Assembly: GCF_014842925.1 (NCBI RefSeq)
Contig: NZ_JACYXJ010000002.1
Span: 496,001-560,000 of the forward strand
Length of the DNA stretch: 64,000 nt
Source: Roseibium polysiphoniae
GTDB lineage: Bacteria > Pseudomonadota > Alphaproteobacteria > Rhizobiales > Stappiaceae
Direction of reading: 5' to 3'
Shown: piece by piece, positions 6,258 through 62,109 of the stretch
How positions within the stretch are numbered: the stretch's first letter is position 1
Layout: every line of letters begins with the position of its first letter
Program-made: the position numbers and the translations under genes
The notes under the pieces: model-generated
What the model was told of the DNA's origin: nothing
Databases searched by the model: none
What the model saw: only the letters and a program-made list of their open reading frames with translations

Positions 6258-7880
6258 TTATGCCTTTTTCAGGCCGCGGACGTCGAGCTGACGGTGGAAC
6301 CAGTACTCGTAGCCCGACACGTCATGGGTGCCCACATTGAGAGCCGGCTGCCACAGGGCGATACGAGGCACCTCATCCCAGACGATTTCGATCATGCGCT
6401 TGATCTTCGGGGCGTAGTCCGGGTCTTCCACGGACATGTGCAGGGTCTCTGCGGTCAGGGCCTCAATTTCCTCGTTGCGGTAGTTGGAGGAATTGAAGAG
6501 GTGGCCTTCCAGATACGCCCAGAAGAAGTAGTAGCACGGGTAGTTCAGCCAGCCGCCGAAGGTCTCAAGATGAAGCGGCAGCCGCTTTTCGACGAGAGAC
6601 GCCGTGCGCCAATTGGCGCCGGGAACCTTTTCGATGGTTGCGGTGATGCCGATCTTGGCAAGGTTTTCCTGAATGAGCAGCGCAGTCGGCTCCATCCAGT
6701 CGGCCTGGCTCTGCGAGATCGACAAAGGCACTTCGAAGCCGTCGCCGTAGCCTGCTTCTTCCAGGAGCGCCTTGGCCTTCTCGAGATCTGTCGAATAAGG
6801 GAACTTCTGAGGCCAGGAAATGTCGGTCGGTGTGGCGTTTTCGCCGCCCCACATGGGGGCACCTCTACCATAGGCTGCGGTCTGGAAAACCTCATCATAT
6901 GGGACGGCGAAAGCGATGGCCTGGCGGACGCGTTTGTCCTTGAACGGTTCGAACGCCAGGTTTGGACACAGGCAGTAGATCGAGTTCTCGATCGGCGTGG
7001 TCGCGACGGTGATGCCGTCGAGATCGGACAATTCCTTCGCGTCCTTGTTGGGCATGTTGAAGGACATGTTCACATCGCCGCGCTCCAGAAGGGCGCGCCG
7101 GGTGGCCGGGCTTGGAACTTCCCGCAGGACCACGCGCTTGACGGCCGGCAAAGGACCTGAGGTCCAGTCGTCGTTGCGCTCGTAAACAAGCTGCTCACCG
7201 GGTTTCCAGGCTGCAACCTTGAAGGCACCGGAACCGGCCGGCGTCTTGTGCAGATATTCCATCGCCCAGGGGTCTTCCTCGGTCGCATTTGCAAGGGCAA
7301 CCTTGGAGTTGATGATCATCGGAACCGGGACCGCGAGATCAGGCAGTGTCAGCTTGGACTTGCGCAGAAGGTTGATCTTGAAGGTCAGGTCGTCAACGGC
7401 TTCGAACTGTTCCGGTTTTTCAAGGGAGCCGGCTTTCATCTGGACCGTCGGGAAGCCGCCGACGCTGACGGCGCGGTCAAAGGACCACTTCACGTCTGCG
7501 GCGGTGATCGGCGATCCATCCTGAAATTTGCCTTCCGGGCGCAGCTTGAACACGATTGCCATGCCGTCGTCGGCAAATTCCCAGCTCTCGGCAACTTCCG
7601 GCTCGATCACGGAATAATCGTAAGACAGGCTGCCGTCCGCGAGCGTCTTGGTGCCAAAGCTGACGAGCCGGTCATAGACATTGACCGCGACCTGATAGCT
7701 GGGGCGGTTGGTTCCCGTGCGATGGATGTCCAGGCTGTTGATTGTCTGGCCCGTGACGGCCACGACGACGTCGCCGCTTGCTGCAGAGGCGGGAAGAACC
7801 TTCAGGAACGGTAAGACAGATGCTCCAAGAGCCGTTGCACCAGCTCCCTTCAAGAAACTGCGTCGGGAAGTGTCGTTCAT
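6258..7880 (-). CDS. Peptide-type ABC transporter substrate-binding protein (solute-binding family 5)
   Basis: 540 residues from the ATG at 7880 (MNDTSRRSFLKGAG). The frame is open to 7934 and a second ATG lies at 7895, but 7880 places the twin-arginine motif SRRSFLKG near the N-terminus, with a hydrophobic h-region and an ASAASG cleavage zone. The mature protein has family 5 hallmarks such as VAESWEFADDGMAIVFKLRPEGKFQDG and VKWSFDRAV. It should be exported folded by the Tat system and deliver ligand to the permeases downstream. It is first in the allophanate-hydrolase operon and divergent from a LysR gene. Confidence 0.92.
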   Translation of the reverse strand: MNDTSRRSFLKGAGATALGASVLPFLKVLPASAASGDVVVAVTGQTINSLDIHRTGTNRPSYQVAVNVYDRLVSFGTKTLADGSLSYDYSVIEPEVAESWEFADDGMAIVFKLRPEGKFQDGSPITAADVKWSFDRAVSVGGFPTVQMKAGSLEKPEQFEAVDDLTFKINLLRKSKLTLPDLAVPVPMIINSKVALANATEEDPWAMEYLHKTPAGSGAFKVAAWKPGEQLVYERNDDWTSGPLPAVKRVVLREVPSPATRRALLERGDVNMSFNMPNKDAKELSDLDGITVATTPIENSIYCLCPNLAFEPFKDKRVRQAIAFAVPYDEVFQTAAYGRGAPMWGGENATPTDISWPQKFPYSTDLEKAKALLEEAGYGDGFEVPLSISQSQADWMEPTALLIQENLAKIGITATIEKVPGANWRTASLVEKRLPLHLETFGGWLNYPCYYFFWAYLEGHLFNSSNYRNEEIEALTAETLHMSVEDPDYAPKIKRMIEIVWDEVPRIALWQPALNVGTHDVSGYEYWFHRQLDVRGLKKA

Positions 7881-55524: not shown

Positions 55525-55540
55525 TGGCACGGCTATTGCT
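55525..55540 (+). promoter_or_regulatory. Sigma-54 (-24/-12) promoter of the guanidine operon
   Basis: TGGCACGGCTATTGCT is a full match to TGGCACG-N4-TTGC-W, with GG and GC exactly 10 bases apart. The predicted start is about 55551, just before the first conserved base of the riboswitch, so promoter and aptamer fit each other. This indicates nitrogen-status control by an enhancer-binding protein. Confidence 0.85.
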
Positions 55541-55554
55541 TTTACCAACTCGTG

Positions 55555-55690
55555 CAGCGCGCCTAGGGATCCGGTTTGATCTTCCGAAACTTGAAGATCA
55601 AACACAGGACCGAGAGGCGCACGCCGGACACGTGATCTTCAGATCGCTCATAGTCCGGTGACACGGCGGGACAAAAACCCGGGAGACCAC
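55555..55690 (+). promoter_or_regulatory. Guanidine-I (ykkC) riboswitch aptamer
   Basis: The conserved blocks of the guanidine-I class occur in order: CCTAGGGATCCGG (55562 on), GGACCGAGAG (55607-55616) and ACACGGCGGGACAAAAACCC followed by GGGAGA (55661-55686). A stem formed by TTTGATCTTC ... GAAGATCAAA (55574-55602) lies between the first two, and TCCGG/CCGGA pairs in the middle part. This class binds free guanidinium and usually switches expression on. It sits between the sigma-54 promoter and the importer operon on the plus strand. Confidence 0.93.
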
Positions 55691-55723
55691 TGCACAGGTT
55701 TGCGCGCGCAGACCTTCTCCCGG
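55679..55723 (+). promoter_or_regulatory. Expression-platform hairpin competing with the riboswitch
   Basis: CCGGGAGA, the conserved 3' end of the aptamer (55679-55686), is perfectly complementary to TCTCCCGG (55716-55723). The loop holds TGCGCGCGCA flanked by GGT/ACC, which can extend the structure. No T-tract follows. TCTCC can instead pair with GGAGA of the ribosome-binding site (55774-55778), so attenuation and translational control are both possible; the direction is unresolved. Confidence 0.6.
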
Positions 55724-55789
55724 ATGTGCGCGAAAGCCTCTTTCAACGGCTGCCCGATGAGGCGGCCAAGACAGGAGACGCGTACAGCC

Positions 55790-56860
55790 ATGATCCGGAC
55801 TTTCGCCAAATCCCTCTGCCTTGCCGCGGCCGTTGCCATGCCGCTTGCCACACCATCCGCCCTTGCTGCGGAAAAGACCGATTTTTCGGTCTGCTGGTCC
55901 ATCTATGTCGGTTGGATGCCCTGGGGCTATCTACAGGACAGCGGCATCATGAAAAAATGGGCCGATAAATACGATATCTCCGTCGATATCGTTCAAATCA
56001 ACGACTATGTGGAATCCATCAACCAGTACACGGCCGGACAATATGACGGCTGCTCCATGACCAACATGGATGCGTTGTCCATCCCCGCCGGCGGCGGTGT
56101 CGATACGACGGCGCTGATCGTGGGCGATTATTCCAACGGCAACGACGGCATTATCCTGAAAGACAAGACGGAACTTGCCGAGATCAAGGGCCAGACGGTC
56201 AACCTCGTTGAGCTTTCGGTGTCCCACTATTTGCTCGCCCGCGCGCTCGATACCGTCGGGCTGAGCGAAAAAGACCTGACCGTCGTCAACACGTCCGACG
56301 CGGACATGATTGCGGCCTATGCAACGGATGATGTGACGTCGGTTGTGACCTGGAACCCGCTGCTTTCCGAAATCGAAGCGGAGGCCAATGCGACCAAGGT
56401 CTTCGACAGTTCCGGTATCCCGGGCGAGATCATCGACGTCATGATGGTCAACACCGAGACGCTCGCGGACAATCCGGCGTTCGGCAAGGCGCTCACTGGC
56501 GCTTGGTATGAACTCATGACCCTGATGTCCTCGGACAGCGATGAGGGCGCCGCGGCTCGTACCGCCATGGCCGAAGCATCTGGCACGGATTTGCCAGGTT
56601 ATGACGCGCAGCTGGCGACAACCAAGATGTTCTATGCGCCTGCTGAGGCCGTCGCCTTCACTGAATCCGACGAATTGCCGGACACGATGAAGTTCGTTGC
56701 CGAATTCCTCTTCGACAACGGGATCCTCGGTGAGGGGGCTCCGAGCCCTGAGTTCGTCGGAGTGGCCTTCCCGGACGGATCGGTCTTCGGCGACGAGGGC
56801 AACGTCAAACTGCGGTTCGATACATCCTTCATGAAGATGGCTGCTGACGGCAGCCTCTAA
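55790..56860 (+). CDS. Guanidine/urea-type ABC transporter substrate-binding protein (urea carboxylase region family)
   Basis: 356 residues from the ATG at 55790, with AGGAGA about 11 bases upstream. Signal peptide: MIRTFAKSLCLAAAVAMPLA with cleavage near SALA-AEK. The mature start FSVCWSIYVGWMPWGYLQD and the stretch NDYVESINQYTAGQYDGCSM are hallmarks of the periplasmic proteins first noticed beside urea carboxylase genes, a subset of the taurine/nitrate binding-protein superfamily. Urea carboxylases linked to guanidine-I riboswitches are now known to act on guanidine, so guanidinium is the likely ligand. It is the first gene under the riboswitch. Confidence 0.93.
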   Translation: MIRTFAKSLCLAAAVAMPLATPSALAAEKTDFSVCWSIYVGWMPWGYLQDSGIMKKWADKYDISVDIVQINDYVESINQYTAGQYDGCSMTNMDALSIPAGGGVDTTALIVGDYSNGNDGIILKDKTELAEIKGQTVNLVELSVSHYLLARALDTVGLSEKDLTVVNTSDADMIAAYATDDVTSVVTWNPLLSEIEAEANATKVFDSSGIPGEIIDVMMVNTETLADNPAFGKALTGAWYELMTLMSSDSDEGAAARTAMAEASGTDLPGYDAQLATTKMFYAPAEAVAFTESDELPDTMKFVAEFLFDNGILGEGAPSPEFVGVAFPDGSVFGDEGNVKLRFDTSFMKMAADGSL

Positions 56861-56880
56861 GCCCATTCCATGAAACCGGT

Positions 56881-56912
56881 ACCCGGCTTGGCGCGACAGT
56901 GCTGAGCCGGGT
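56881..56912 (+). other. Intercistronic stem-loop between guanidine binding-protein and permease genes
   Basis: ACCCGGCT (56881-56888) pairs perfectly with AGCCGGGT (56905-56912) in the 70-base gap after the binding-protein stop. It probably sets the ratio of binding protein to membrane subunits. Confidence 0.5.
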
Positions 56913-56930
56913 CAACGGAAAGGCTTTCTC

Positions 56931-57752
56931 ATGCGGATCATCAATCTGAGACCCGGTCGGCTGACGTCTCTTGCGCTCGGCATTGTGCCTTTCGCAGGCG
57001 TGATCATTGCCTATGCGGTCGCGAGCCACTATCGACGGCTGGAAAACCCTGCAGACAAGCTGCTGCCGTCGCTGGAGAAGATGGGCGAAGCCTTCTGGCG
57101 AATGGCCTTTGTGCCGGACCGGCGCTCAGGTGATCTGCTTTTGTGGCTGGATACGTTCGACAGCCTCATGCGCCTTGGTGTTGGCATGGCGGTTGCCAGC
57201 CTGCTTGCCATAACACTCGGCATTGCGATCGGTTTCATTCCGCATGTCCGCTCTTCACTTGCGCCGTTCCTGGCAACCTTCTCTCTGATTCCGCCGATCA
57301 CAATTCTGCCCATTCTATTCATCTCTTTCGGCCTCGGGGAAGTTTCCAAAATCGCCCTGATCGTGATTGGTACAGCGCCTGTCATGATCCGCTACACCGC
57401 TCAGTCGGTGCTCGATATCCCGCGAGAGATGATCATCAAGGCCGAAACACTCGGCGCGTCAGTCTGGCAGATGATCACGCGGCTCGTCCTGCCGCAGGTC
57501 CTGCCAAAGGTGATCTCTTGTCTGAGATTAAGTCTCGTGCCGGCGTGGATCTTCCTGATTTCGGCCGAGGCTATCGCCTCCACCTCCGGGCTCGGCTACC
57601 GGATCTTTCTCGTGCGCCGCTATTTGGCGATGGATGTGATCCTGACATACGTCGTCTGGATCACCCTTCTGGCCTTCGTTCTCGATCGGCTTCTGCTTGC
57701 GCTTTCGAAACGTGCTTTCTCCTGGAACCATCTGGAAAGAGACAGCCTGTGA
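56931..57752 (+). CDS. Guanidine/urea-type ABC transporter permease
   Basis: 273 residues beginning MRIINLRPGRLTSLALGIVP. It has the nitrate/taurine-type permease architecture: six membrane segments, the VASLLAITLGIAIGFIPHV helix and the EAA loop MIIKAETLGASVWQMITRLVLP with its conserved glycine. PAWIFLISAEAIASTSGLGY is typical of this subfamily. Its stop overlaps the GTG of the ATPase gene. It should import guanidinium together with the proteins encoded on each side. Confidence 0.92.
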   Translation: MRIINLRPGRLTSLALGIVPFAGVIIAYAVASHYRRLENPADKLLPSLEKMGEAFWRMAFVPDRRSGDLLLWLDTFDSLMRLGVGMAVASLLAITLGIAIGFIPHVRSSLAPFLATFSLIPPITILPILFISFGLGEVSKIALIVIGTAPVMIRYTAQSVLDIPREMIIKAETLGASVWQMITRLVLPQVLPKVISCLRLSLVPAWIFLISAEAIASTSGLGYRIFLVRRYLAMDVILTYVVWITLLAFVLDRLLLALSKRAFSWNHLERDSL

Positions 57753-58546
57753 CCCACGAGACCAAGCTTTCAGTCCAAAATCTGTTCATGAGCTACGATG
57801 GCGCTCCGATCCTCGAACGGGTGAGCCTCGATGTCAGCGAAGGCAGCTTTTGCACCATCGTTGGTGCGTCCGGGTGCGGAAAGTCAACCTTTTTGAGACT
57901 GTTGCTTTCCCAGGAGAGGGCCTCTCGCGGGAAGATCCTTCTCGACGGTACGCCATTGCCGGAAGAGCCGACACCTGACCGGGGTATCGTTTTTCAGCGG
58001 TATTCAGTGTTTCCGCATCTCACTGTGGCAGAAAACCTGATCCTGGCGAACGAGTTCGAGGCCTCTCCAATCACGGGCCGACTGTTCGGTTCTGCTCGAA
58101 AAGAGGCGCTATGCGAGATTGAACCGCTGCTTGAACGTATCGGGCTCAATCAGGCAGCCAACCGTTACCCGGCGCAGCTTTCCGGCGGCATGCAACAACG
58201 TCTCGCCATTGCCCAGGCACTGATCAAGCGGCCGAAAGTCCTTCTTCTGGATGAACCCTTCGGCGCTCTGGATCCGGGTATCCGCGCCGACATGCACGAA
58301 CTTCTTCATGATCTCTGGCGCGAGCTCAACATGACGATCTTCATGGTGACACACGACATCCATGAAGCCTTCAAGCTCGGAACCAGGCTTCTGGTCTTCG
58401 ACAAGGTACGCCACGACCCCCAGGCACCTGAGGCTTATGGCGCGACCATCACCTACGACTTGCCGATCAAGGCCAATGACCGGGGCGACGCCGATCTGGT
58501 CGCCTTGGCCTCTGGCGAGAAACCAAACACTGCTGCAGACAGCTGA
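57749..58546 (+). CDS. Guanidine/urea-type ABC transporter ATPase
   Basis: 265 residues from the GTG at 57749 that overlaps the permease TGA; the frame open from 57143 lies inside the permease and is not used. Walker A GASGCGKST, Q-loop FQRYSVFPHL, signature LSGGMQQRLAIAQAL, Walker B LLLDEPFGALD and switch His in VTHDIHEAFKLG. The C-terminal tail DLPIKANDRGDADLVALAS matches the urea-carboxylase-region importer ATPases. It is directly followed by the ureohydrolase gene. Confidence 0.92.
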   Translation: MTHETKLSVQNLFMSYDGAPILERVSLDVSEGSFCTIVGASGCGKSTFLRLLLSQERASRGKILLDGTPLPEEPTPDRGIVFQRYSVFPHLTVAENLILANEFEASPITGRLFGSARKEALCEIEPLLERIGLNQAANRYPAQLSGGMQQRLAIAQALIKRPKVLLLDEPFGALDPGIRADMHELLHDLWRELNMTIFMVTHDIHEAFKLGTRLLVFDKVRHDPQAPEAYGATITYDLPIKANDRGDADLVALASGEKPNTAADS

Positions 58547-58562
58547 GAAAGGGAGAACCTTC

Positions 58563-59801
58563 ATGACCACGTTCGACAACCAGGGGCCTGTGACCCGAAG
58601 CAAGGCCGCTGGCCAGATAGGTGTTCGCGAGCCTTCGCGGCAGCATCACCCCGACTTCGACAAGCTGCAGCTGCGTGGTTGGAAATCGGCAGAAAAGGAA
58701 GCTTTGCTGCCATCCGCCGCCTGGGAGAAGGAGAAACAGTGGGCTCTGAGGATGGGGCTTACGGGGGCCGAGTCCATCAACGACAAGTCGATCCCGACAT
58801 TTGCCCGGGGCGAGCTGCCGCATTATGCCGGCATCAACACGTTTTTGAAGGCGCCTTACATCGAGGATGTCACACAGGTTGGTGCCTATGATGCGGCGGT
58901 CATCGGCATTCCTTTTGACGGCGGCACGACTTATCGGCCAGGCACGCGGTTTGGTCCGCAGGGCGTGCGCAAGATTTCCGCGCTTTACACGCCCTATAAC
59001 TACGAGATGGGCGTGGACCTGCGCGAGCAGATGACCCTTTGCGATGTCGGCGATGTCTTCACCATCCCAGCCAATATCGAAAAGACCTTCGACCAGATTA
59101 CGCGCGCGGTGTCCCATGTGGTTTCGTCCGGGGCGCTGCCGATCATGATCGGCGGGGACCATTCTATTGGCTTTCCATGCGTGCGCGGGATCGCGCAGTG
59201 CACCTCCAAGCGTATTGGCATCGTCCACTTCGACCGTCATATCGACATCCAGGAAAAGGATCTCGATGAGCGGATGCATACGACGCCATGGTTCCACGCA
59301 ACTGATCTGGCGAATGTGCCTGCGGTCAACCTTGTTCAGGTGGGTATCGGTGGCTGGCAGGTGCCGCGCGAAGGCGTCGAGGTTGCCCGTGAGCGCAACA
59401 CCAACATCTTCACCATGCGCGATGTCGAGGAGCTTGGTCTGGCCGAAACGGCGGCCAGAGCGTTGGAGCTGGCCTGGAAGGACGCGGATGCCGTCTATAT
59501 TTCGTTCGATATCGACAGCGTGGACTGCGGTTTCGTTCCGGGAACAGGCTGGCCGGAGCCCGGTGGTTTTCTGCCCCGCGAAGCGCTTGAGCTCGTCTCT
59601 CTTGTCGCCAAGGAAGGGATCTGTGGGCTCGAAGTTGTCGAGGTGTCGCCGCCTTACGATTGCTCCGATATCACCGCGCTTCTGGCGACGCGGGTCATCG
59701 TTGATGTGCTGGGAACGTTGGTGTCCCACGGTAAAATGGGCTCGCACAAATCGATCATCGACAAGCCGGTGTCCATTCCGGCTGGTCCGGACGTGGGGTG
59801 A
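58563..59801 (+). CDS. Ureohydrolase-family enzyme, probable Ni-dependent guanidine hydrolase (GdmH-like)
   Basis: 412 residues from the ATG at 58563, with GGGAGAA upstream. All six metal ligands of ureohydrolases are present: H200 (GGDHS), D224, H226 and D228 (HFDRHIDI), and D316 and D318 (FDIDSVD). Plain agmatinases are about 310 residues; this protein has an extra N-terminal region of about 80 residues and a distinctive HFDRHIDIQEKDLDERMHT segment, features I associate with the guanidine hydrolase of cyanobacteria. That enzyme splits guanidine to urea and ammonia with nickel. Riboswitch and importer context support guanidine; annotation pipelines would call it agmatinase. Confidence 0.85.
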   Translation: MTTFDNQGPVTRSKAAGQIGVREPSRQHHPDFDKLQLRGWKSAEKEALLPSAAWEKEKQWALRMGLTGAESINDKSIPTFARGELPHYAGINTFLKAPYIEDVTQVGAYDAAVIGIPFDGGTTYRPGTRFGPQGVRKISALYTPYNYEMGVDLREQMTLCDVGDVFTIPANIEKTFDQITRAVSHVVSSGALPIMIGGDHSIGFPCVRGIAQCTSKRIGIVHFDRHIDIQEKDLDERMHTTPWFHATDLANVPAVNLVQVGIGGWQVPREGVEVARERNTNIFTMRDVEELGLAETAARALELAWKDADAVYISFDIDSVDCGFVPGTGWPEPGGFLPREALELVSLVAKEGICGLEVVEVSPPYDCSDITALLATRVIVDVLGTLVSHGKMGSHKSIIDKPVSIPAGPDVG

Positions 59802-59806
59802 TCGTC

Positions 59807-60274
59807 ATGGCACATGCTCATCACCACCATCCTCATAGCCATGATCATCACGATCATGGTCCTGGGCACAATCATGGCCACGGACATGATCATCTGCATT
59901 CGCATGTCCATGGCACGTCAAATCACGAAAAGACCGAAGAACTTCAGGTGCTGGCGACAAGCTTTGTCGACGGCTTTAGGTCGGCTGAAGACAAGATCAG
60001 CTACCTGAGGCTTTCGGGCATTCCCTTTCAGAAACCGGGAAGCGATGGCCTGACGCTTAATCTCGTTGACGCGGCCATTGCATCCAACTGGCAGATCGGC
60101 ACTGCATCGCCTGCTTTTGCATCGCGTGAGCTGGTCTATATGCCGTTCCCCGGCAACATGGTCTCCCAGCGTGAGACTATGACCTTCACCTATGTGTCTT
60201 TGAGCGAACGCGCAGATGTTGATCTGGTCGACATTCTGCGGGAGCGCATTGAAAGCGGAGAAACAAATCCATGA
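59807..60274 (+). CDS. Histidine-rich protein, candidate metallochaperone of the hydrolase
   Basis: 155 residues from the ATG at 59807; a GTG three codons earlier is possible. Residues 1-40 hold 19 histidines in HHHH, HSHDHHDH and repeated GH/HG units, a metal-storage type tail as in UreE or HypB, though the rest resembles neither. Residues about 42-155 look like a compact folded domain (LQVLATSFVDGFRSAEDKIS, YLRLSGIPFQKPGSDGLTL, MPFPGNMVSQRETMTFTYV) with no P-loop and no cysteine motif. I do not recognise the family. It starts 5 bases after the hydrolase stop and overlaps the next gene, so delivery of nickel to the hydrolase is a reasonable inference. Confidence 0.82.
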   Translation: MAHAHHHHPHSHDHHDHGPGHNHGHGHDHLHSHVHGTSNHEKTEELQVLATSFVDGFRSAEDKISYLRLSGIPFQKPGSDGLTLNLVDAAIASNWQIGTASPAFASRELVYMPFPGNMVSQRETMTFTYVSLSERADVDLVDILRERIESGETNP

Positions 60275-60477
60275 AAACGGTTACGACCCATCTCTTGACT
60301 GCAGCCGCCAGCCTTGCGGCAATCTCGCCAGCCCTGGCGCATTCGGGCGACCATGGCGAGGTGCATTTGCGTGAGGCCGCGACGCATCTCCTGTCATCCC
60401 CCCTCCATATGGCGGTGGTCGCCGCTGGTGGTGTGCTTTTGGCGACACTCATCTGGTGGCGGGTTTCCAAACGATAA
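60271..60477 (+). CDS. Small His-containing membrane protein
   Basis: 68 residues. A signal peptide (MKTVTTHLLTAAASLAAISP, cleavage after ALA near residue 23) is followed by a short periplasmic stretch HSGDHGEVHLREAATHLLSS, rich in His and acidic residues, and a single membrane helix MAVVAAGGVLLATLIWW ending in RVSKR. The start overlaps the His-rich gene stop by 4 bases. The His/Asp/Glu segment resembles the N-termini of HupE/UreJ-type metal transporters but only one helix remains. A role in metal capture is inferred only. Confidence 0.75.
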   Translation: MKTVTTHLLTAAASLAAISPALAHSGDHGEVHLREAATHLLSSPLHMAVVAAGGVLLATLIWWRVSKR

Positions 60478-60483
60478 GCGTAG

Positions 60484-60517
60484 TTCCCGCCGCGATTTTT
60501 GATATCCGCGGCGGGAA
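60484..60517 (+). terminator. Hairpin ending the guanidine operon
   Basis: TTCCCGCCGCG (60484-60494) pairs perfectly over 11 bases with CGCGGCGGGAA (60507-60517), starting 7 bases after the last stop codon. The loop carries a T5 run; no T-tract follows the stem. It probably marks the operon end. Confidence 0.65.
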
Positions 60518-61756: not shown

Positions 61757-62109
61757 ATGACTGATATTCAACGCCTCGACAAAGGCCCGCGCATGAGCCA
61801 GGCCGTTGTTCACAACGGCCTGGCTCATGCGCGGGCCAGGTCGGGACACCGGGTGAAAGCGTCACGGACCAGACCAAGACGGTTTTGGCGAAAGTTGACG
61901 ATATGCTGGCGAAGGCCGGCACCGACAAATCCCGTCTGCTGCAGGCGACCATCTGGCTTGCGTCAATGGATGACTTTGCCGAGATGAATGCGGTTTGGGA
62001 TGCCTGGGTCGATCCTGAAAATGCCCCTGCACGTGCGACCGGCGAATCTGCACTTGCAACGTCCGAGCACAAGGTCGAGATCATCATTGTCGCGGCCTTG
62101 AACGACTAA
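61757..62109 (+). pseudogene. RidA-family gene disrupted by frameshift
   Basis: Reading from the ATG at 61757 gives a normal RidA N-terminus (MTDIQRLDKGPRMSQAVVHNG). After about 24 codons the frame becomes Arg-rich nonsense. The rest of RidA continues in another frame: AGQVGTPGESVTDQTKTVLA, then KVDDMLAKAGTDKSRLLQAT and KVEIIIVAALND to the stop at 62109. One base is missing, or two are extra, around 61827-61831. The break lies in the right arm of a perfect inverted repeat. RidA removes reactive enamines/imines, matching the upstream FAD oxidase. Either a real mutation or a sequencing error. Confidence 0.85.
61784..61837. repeat. Perfect inverted repeat, 26-base arms with 2-base spacer
   Basis: The left arm (61784-61809, starting GGCCCGCGCATGAGCC) is the exact reverse complement of the right arm (61812-61837), separated by TC. 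Such a long perfect palindrome inside a coding region is unusual. Its right arm is where the RidA frame breaks, and the bases there copy the left arm instead of coding for the expected RidA residues. Confidence 0.93.

Follow-up and report, generated by a model that had tools for sequence, protein, structure and literature searches.

The 64,000-nt stretch of the Roseibium polysiphoniae genome analysed here (contig NZ_JACYXJ010000002.1, positions 496,001 to 560,000; hereafter the window) carries an operon, placed behind a guanidine-I riboswitch, that likely imports guanidine and hydrolyses it as a nitrogen source. It encodes a periplasmic substrate-binding protein (SBP), a permease and an ATPase of the ATP-binding cassette (ABC) type, a ureohydrolase that is by sequence the guanidinase GdmH, and two small proteins named here P5 and P6. 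P5 is predicted to hand nickel to GdmH in place of the chaperones HypA and HypB, and we consider this reading of the operon probable. The riboswitch, importer and guanidinase are of a known kind; the new part is the accessory set P5/P6. This set appears undescribed in the guanidinase and guanidine literature as searched by title and beginning of abstract, where an earlier mention is possible.

P5 turned out to be a constant partner of gdmH. The gene was followed through the window and 80 loci (81 in all), these being the best 80 of at least 582 stretches and biased to close kin (at least 75% identity), with P5 start codons picked mechanically. It lies downstream of gdmH in all 81, at a gap of 20 nt or less in 76, and SBP, permease, ATPase, gdmH and P5 share one strand in 79 of the 80 kept loci; in the exception, L031, the SBP gene is cut off by the contig end. 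Two evenly drawn genome samples, scored at E 1e-100 and 1e-70 for GdmH and 1e-6 for P5 with few candidates per genome, gave P5 in every gdmH genome (11 of 11 among 385 genomes, 7 of 7 among 398; 16 genomes overall), the gdmH and P5 lists being identical in the second sample. The two samples are not fully independent, since they overlap each other (gdmH genomes G000 and G107) and include some genomes behind the 80 loci. No intact P5 away from gdmH was found in either sample (E ≤ 1e-6), and P5 without gdmH was seen twice, each time as a remnant. At least 1530 relatives of P5 were counted at E ≤ 0.01, and gdmH itself is spread patchily through Alphaproteobacteria (11 of 385 sampled class members).

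For the window's P5 and P6, neither Pfam nor NCBIfam gave a family at E ≤ 0.1, in agreement with an earlier note on this DNA that had regarded both as novel. P5 joins a His-rich tail (at least six His in all 81 proteins, median 19, with the lowest count, 6, in L031) to a core modelled by AlphaFold2 with a predicted local distance difference test score of about 90, in which D62, Y111 and P115 are invariant and for which there was no Pfam match and no PDB match at E ≤ 0.001. With UreE and HypB it has in common a His-rich segment on a folded core beside a nickel enzyme, but the P5 core belongs to neither family: 91 P5 members searched at E ≤ 1 gave no match to HypA (PF01155) or to the UreE_N and UreE_C domains, and the window's P5 has no P-loop motif and no Cys, hence no Cys-based HypA zinc site. 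Weak matches of some P5 to a HypB query (best E 1.4e-5, high bias) are most probably due to the His tails. Some members also weakly match Zip, ZrgA and nickel/cobalt efflux families (best E 0.00043 to 0.0047), as would suit a general metal-storage or detoxification pair, P5 and P6, hitchhiking in the operon. However, the ZrgA matches (PF10986, 10 of 91 members, best E 0.0047) come along with the His tail, and none of the seven tail-less cores gave a Zip, ZrgA or efflux match in Pfam; as intact P5 was also not found away from gdmH, we regard such a pair as quite improbable.

Individual loci show P5 in other arrangements. In L054 (11163-11567) the His cluster is C-terminal instead of N-terminal and the core is retained. 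In L090 (about 6400-7035) the 5' part of the SBP gene is fused to P5, with permease, ATPase and gdmH gone, through a deletion or an assembly fault; the His cluster lies on the P5 end of the fused gene. L089 (6119-6361) holds a P5 fragment without its first half, after an ABC/FtsX-like transporter cluster, with no gdmH in the 12-kb stretch.

What P5 does is predicted by analogy. In the metformin hydrolase operon, hypA and hypB precede and hupE follows the genes for nickel ureohydrolases; the same source names nickel chaperones as activators of GdmH (PMC11399263; like all sources here, cited from parts of its text). Because of this literature on the helpers of GdmH and metformin hydrolase, and of the strict pairing, P5 is most likely a metal loader, predicted to be a dedicated nickel delivery protein for GdmH. 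The main rival is that P5 belongs to GdmH as a structural or assembly subunit, or acts on it as an allosteric partner, in the way of the second subunit of metformin hydrolase, with the His tail of P5 only buffering metal. The pairing with gdmH fits a subunit equally well, and the invariant D62, Y111 and P115 make no typical metal site. The distances of P5 and GdmH are correlated too (r 0.88 over 80 loci), which may reflect shared inheritance only, because the correlations of SBP with P5 (0.85) and with GdmH (0.80) are nearly as high. Yet the Nitrospira inopinata guanidinase has been described as a homohexamer resembling Synechocystis GdmH (PMC11410670), and all 81 P5 have retained His-rich segments; a subunit role is accordingly rather unlikely.

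The chaperones that P5 would replace were looked for in the whole genome. HypA and HypB, already reported by the earlier note as missing from the locus, were not found in the window; a profile search of the 4.58-Mb genome detected no HypA and no HypB above cut-off, the best gene (79.8 bits against 121.2) being UreG. HypA was missing from 22 of 37 gdmH genomes scanned (11 of 11 from the class sample and 26 of the 80 loci), and neither the 80 loci nor the other retrieved gdmH loci contained it, save three positive-control loci. HypB-like matches in the loci corresponded to UreG (L099, L064, L096), to P5 itself (L055) or to positive controls; the HypB of L112 bears a His-rich stretch. Elsewhere, the genome encodes a urease cluster (UreD, beta, alpha, E, F and G, the gamma subunit not being scanned for), whose UreE has a His-rich tail at its C-terminal end, and ureC and/or ureG flank the gdmH loci L032, L034, L064, L096 and L101, which fits urea as the product. 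These genes also speak for a loading of GdmH by UreE and UreG, with P5 a mere connector. Against that stand the separate place of the urease set in this genome and the presence of a His tail on P5 itself, and we hold such a loading improbable.

The identity of the ureohydrolase follows from its clade, its PDB scores and its specificity residues. Its Arginase domain begins at residue 110 (260 bits, Pfam), so that the long N-terminal extension announced by the earlier note is real, and all six dimetal ligands are present as claimed (H200, D224, H226, D228, D316 and D318). In a PDB search, the enzyme scored 548 bits with 7esr/7oi1, 531 with 9fek, 178 with the next enzyme and at most 134 with solved agmatinases. 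The first two are named 'Probable agmatinase 2' and 'Putative agmatinase 2' in the PDB; with support from residue numbers, we take them to be the guanidinases of Synechocystis (7esr/7oi1) and N. inopinata (9fek). A tree of 24 rows, comprising 10 of the 80 loci and five solved enzymes but no agmatinase of known structure, placed the window enzyme in one clade with both GdmH structures (support 100/98), apart from proclavaminate amidinohydrolase, guanidinobutyrase, guanidinopropionase and four paralogues from the same genome; the tool flagged long branches among the outgroup rows. The clade also takes in an Embleya enzyme without the diagnostic Trp. The residues described as guanidinase marks, T97 and W305 in Synechocystis and T105, W313, H222 and E344 in Nitrospira (PMC11410670), correspond to T123, W330, H239 and E360 in the window enzyme, if both PDB chains are taken to be shifted by two residues through a tag, a shift that suits all six.

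A substrate other than guanidine (agmatine, guanidinobutyrate or methylguanidine), the riboswitch then sensing a by-product, would suit the score of 174.0 bits with the NCBIfam agmatinase model, marginally below its cut-off of 174.3. As the clade, the four residues and the riboswitch all indicate free guanidine, this is very improbable, and the choice of a guanidine hydrolase over a guanidinobutyrase or an agmatinase, made in the earlier note, holds. Among the matches listed, the best named ones to the window's GdmH are mostly from Roseibium. One homologue, on the contig L031 of a metagenome-assembled genome labelled Anaerolineae (1374-2504), is 84% identical to it and paired with P5, the contig being misbinned or the genes transferred. 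Residues 28-31 in the N-terminal extension read HHPD, a motif that precedes the start of the alignment to the GdmH structures; it is invariant across 18 aligned GdmH, but reads HHPN in L020.

All the elements that the earlier note had listed were recovered in the order given (Table 1), from a sigma-54-type element and a riboswitch to a complete importer of one SBP, one permease and one ATPase, the ureohydrolase and two small genes. Of the two proteins it had called His-rich, P5 is strongly so and P6 only mildly (6 His in 68 aa). Permease and ATPase genes overlap by GTGA, P5 and P6 by ATGA. The lack of a carboxylase was likewise borne out: none occurs among the operon genes in Pfam and NCBIfam profile searches, and no full-length urea or guanidine carboxylase exceeds the TIGR02712 cut-off of 1303.85 bits in the genome, where the best match is partial (560 bits).

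Table 1. Features of the guanidine operon, in window coordinates.
Feature	Position	Strand	Evidence
Sigma-54-type -24/-12 element (TGGCAC-N5-TTGC), TGGCACGGCTATTGCT	55525-55540	+	Pattern match
Guanidine-I riboswitch aptamer (RF00442)	55552-55687	+	Covariance model, 68.9 bits
Candidate expression platform, CCGGGAGA (55679-55686) pairing with TCTCCCGG (55716-55723)	55679-55723	+	Minimum free energy fold
SBP, periplasmic, likely guanidine-binding judging from sequence	55790-56860	+	TIGR03427, NMT1 families
ABC permease	56931-57752	+	PF00528, 70 bits
ABC ATPase	57749-58546	+	PF00005, 116 bits
Guanidinase GdmH (guanidine hydrolase), assigned by sequence	58563-59801	+	PDB scores, tree, residues
P5, 155 aa, His-rich tail and conserved core; predicted metal-delivery protein	59807-60274	+	Pairing with gdmH, AlphaFold2 core
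P6, 68 aa: signal peptide, AxA then His, His-containing stretch, one membrane helix, basic tail	60271-60477	+	Layout

The covariance model that the earlier note had proposed as a check scored the riboswitch above the gathering score of 63 bits (E 3.9e-10). A guanidine-I match occurred in all 50 gdmH genomes scanned (this one and those of 49 of the 80 loci), exceeding the gathering score in 46, and lay upstream of the SBP gene, inside the gdm locus, in 48 of 49 mapped cases; only in L031, whose locus is truncated at the end of the contig, did it lie outside. The leader (55551-55810) folds with a minimum free energy z of -5.6, and the 3' strand of the aptamer can pair with a downstream copy. By a simple pattern, the 5' box of the riboswitch was located in 52 of 80 SBP-bearing loci (window counted). 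In 30 of them a sigma-54 pattern occurs in the 60 nt ahead of the box, against a background of 127 in 40,500 random 60-nt windows; the distance is 37-40 nt in 29 of the 30 and 38 nt in the window. Sigma-54 control has been predicted for COG3665 'urea carboxylase' genes in Proteobacteria and for arginase/agmatinase genes in Bacillota (PMC12316311), in a work whose main text never uses the word 'guanidine'. As for the importer, the SBP reaches 562.5 bits with TIGR03427, 'putative urea ABC transporter' (cut-off 333.9), thus belonging to this family, and also matches NMT1 families in Pfam; it likely binds guanidine.

P6 was recognized by its layout after P5, in 38 of the 81 loci under a strict rule (control, 6 of 14,521 random positions) and in 47 under a relaxed one (control, 12 of 29,031), and joins P5 through an ATGA overlap in 39 of these 47. 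Its product has a signal-peptide-like start ending in AxA or similar, with the putative cleavage site read from the sequence, then directly a His, one hydrophobic helix and a basic tail. Across 18 aligned P6, H24 and H28 never vary; H39, P44 and H46 are almost invariant. Shorter forms from Rhodobacterales were grouped by layout only, and the single homologue found was from Roseibium polysiphoniae. The start of HupE from the same genome (AHA/HLDPASH...HPVFGLDH) resembles P6, with an identical H-x6-H spacing. As HupE_UreJ (PF04955) matches 3 of 18 P6 weakly (best E 0.006), and the window's 68-aa P6, with room for one mature helix, not at all, we speak of resemblance and not of membership. A role of P6 in metal capture is suggested more tentatively, by analogy. 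Carried further, P5 may be the founder of a GTPase-free class of nickel-delivery proteins maturing a nickel ureohydrolase across Alphaproteobacteria, fed from outside by P6, a membrane peptide acting as a miniature HupE with an N-terminal His and one helix; we give this extension somewhat less than an even chance.

What was observed is the order of the genes, the score of the riboswitch, the clade and residues of GdmH, the strict pairing of P5 with GdmH in the loci and genomes covered, the missing HypA and the urease genes; the following mechanism is proposed. The operon would be transcribed by sigma-54 RNA polymerase, probably under nitrogen limitation, with guanidine gating expression through the riboswitch. 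The SBP would capture guanidine for import by the permease and ATPase, and GdmH would split it into urea and ammonia, using a dimetal centre that contains nickel, with the urea going on to urease. P5 would collect Ni2+ on its His tail, in the way supposed for the tails of UreE and HypB, and dock onto GdmH through its core. More tentatively, P6 would be anchored in the cytoplasmic membrane, expose its N-terminal His and other His residues to the periplasm and aid metal capture, similarly to the first segment of the nickel permease HupE.

Several points weigh against this proposal. Because the SBP family is named for urea, the importer may carry urea. Of the 37 gdmH genomes scanned, 15 do encode HypA, in the cases seen outside the gdm loci. 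Of the 52 box-bearing loci, 22 gave no match to the sigma-54 pattern (by record title 18 Rhodobacterales, 3 Sinorhizobium, 1 Bauldia), and a search for NtrC-type palindromes gave nothing conserved. In the crystal of the Nitrospira guanidinase, each subunit contained one nickel plus one manganese (PMC11410670). In E. coli extracts, the activity of metformin hydrolase was not significantly altered by MetAB, although the knockout failed to grow on metformin (PMC11271267). The fold of P5 is unlike any known chaperone, and the argument from its His-rich tail to metal affinity is one of analogy. P6 is absent by the layout rules from 34-43 of the 81 loci and too short for solid homology statistics, so that the common homology of all P6, grouped by layout, is putative. 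Finally, four gdmH-clade genes from actinobacterial records (two Rubrobacter, one Nonomuraea, one Embleya) have neither P5 nor HypA/HypB in the retrieved stretches. Since the two Rubrobacter loci lack both, and comammox guanidinases are described without nickel chaperones (PMC11410670), a dedicated loader is not universal. These surveys, and the HypA/HypB chaperones of cyanobacterial guanidinase loci (PMC8390497, PMC10119275), suggest that loaders appear lineage-specific, with HypA/HypB in cyanobacteria, none found in comammox bacteria and P5 in Alphaproteobacteria.

The earlier note had seen in the operon a third, hydrolytic design for guanidine use, a claim that does not stand. There is no third pathway, because cyanobacteria share the riboswitch, the ABC importer and GdmH in a published design (PMC8390497, PMC12186494) and comammox bacteria also do without chaperones; moreover, the same gene order recurs in other Alphaproteobacteria. 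The sll1077 operon of Synechocystis PCC 6803 has the guanidine-I riboswitch, SsuA-type SBP, permease, ATPase and GdmH in common with that of Roseibium (PMC8390497, PMC12186494), but encodes HypA/HypB-like nickel chaperones where Roseibium has P5 and P6; the Roseibium operon also has a sigma-54-type element upstream. The N. inopinata locus shares the guanidine-I riboswitch, a GdmH-clade enzyme and the lack of nickel chaperones in the locus (PMC11410670), but has an APC permease instead of the ABC importer; P5 was not searched for in comammox genomes. By analogy, the operon for metformin/dimethylguanidine hydrolase (hypA-hypB-ureohydrolase alpha-beta-hupE) also combines a nickel ureohydrolase with accessory genes, whereas its enzyme is heteromeric and accompanied by HypA/HypB, that of Roseibium belonging to the GdmH clade and being accompanied by P5; and hupE follows the metformin enzymes where P6, which looks like a one-helix echo of the start of HupE, stands here.

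The locus offers a candidate nickel loader amenable to a clean genetic test, from a family of at least 1530 sequences. The reading proposed here would assign a function to proteins annotated simply as 'hypothetical protein' or 'uncharacterized protein' in the listed rows, would correct the label 'agmatinase family' found on such an enzyme, and would show guanidine hydrolysis spread patchily in Alphaproteobacteria, partly behind a sigma-54-type element and a riboswitch. Elsewhere in the window, the second half of a Rid-family protein lies in a separate frame at 61885-62109 (TIGR00004, 43 bits, under the cut-off), and this gene may be frameshifted.

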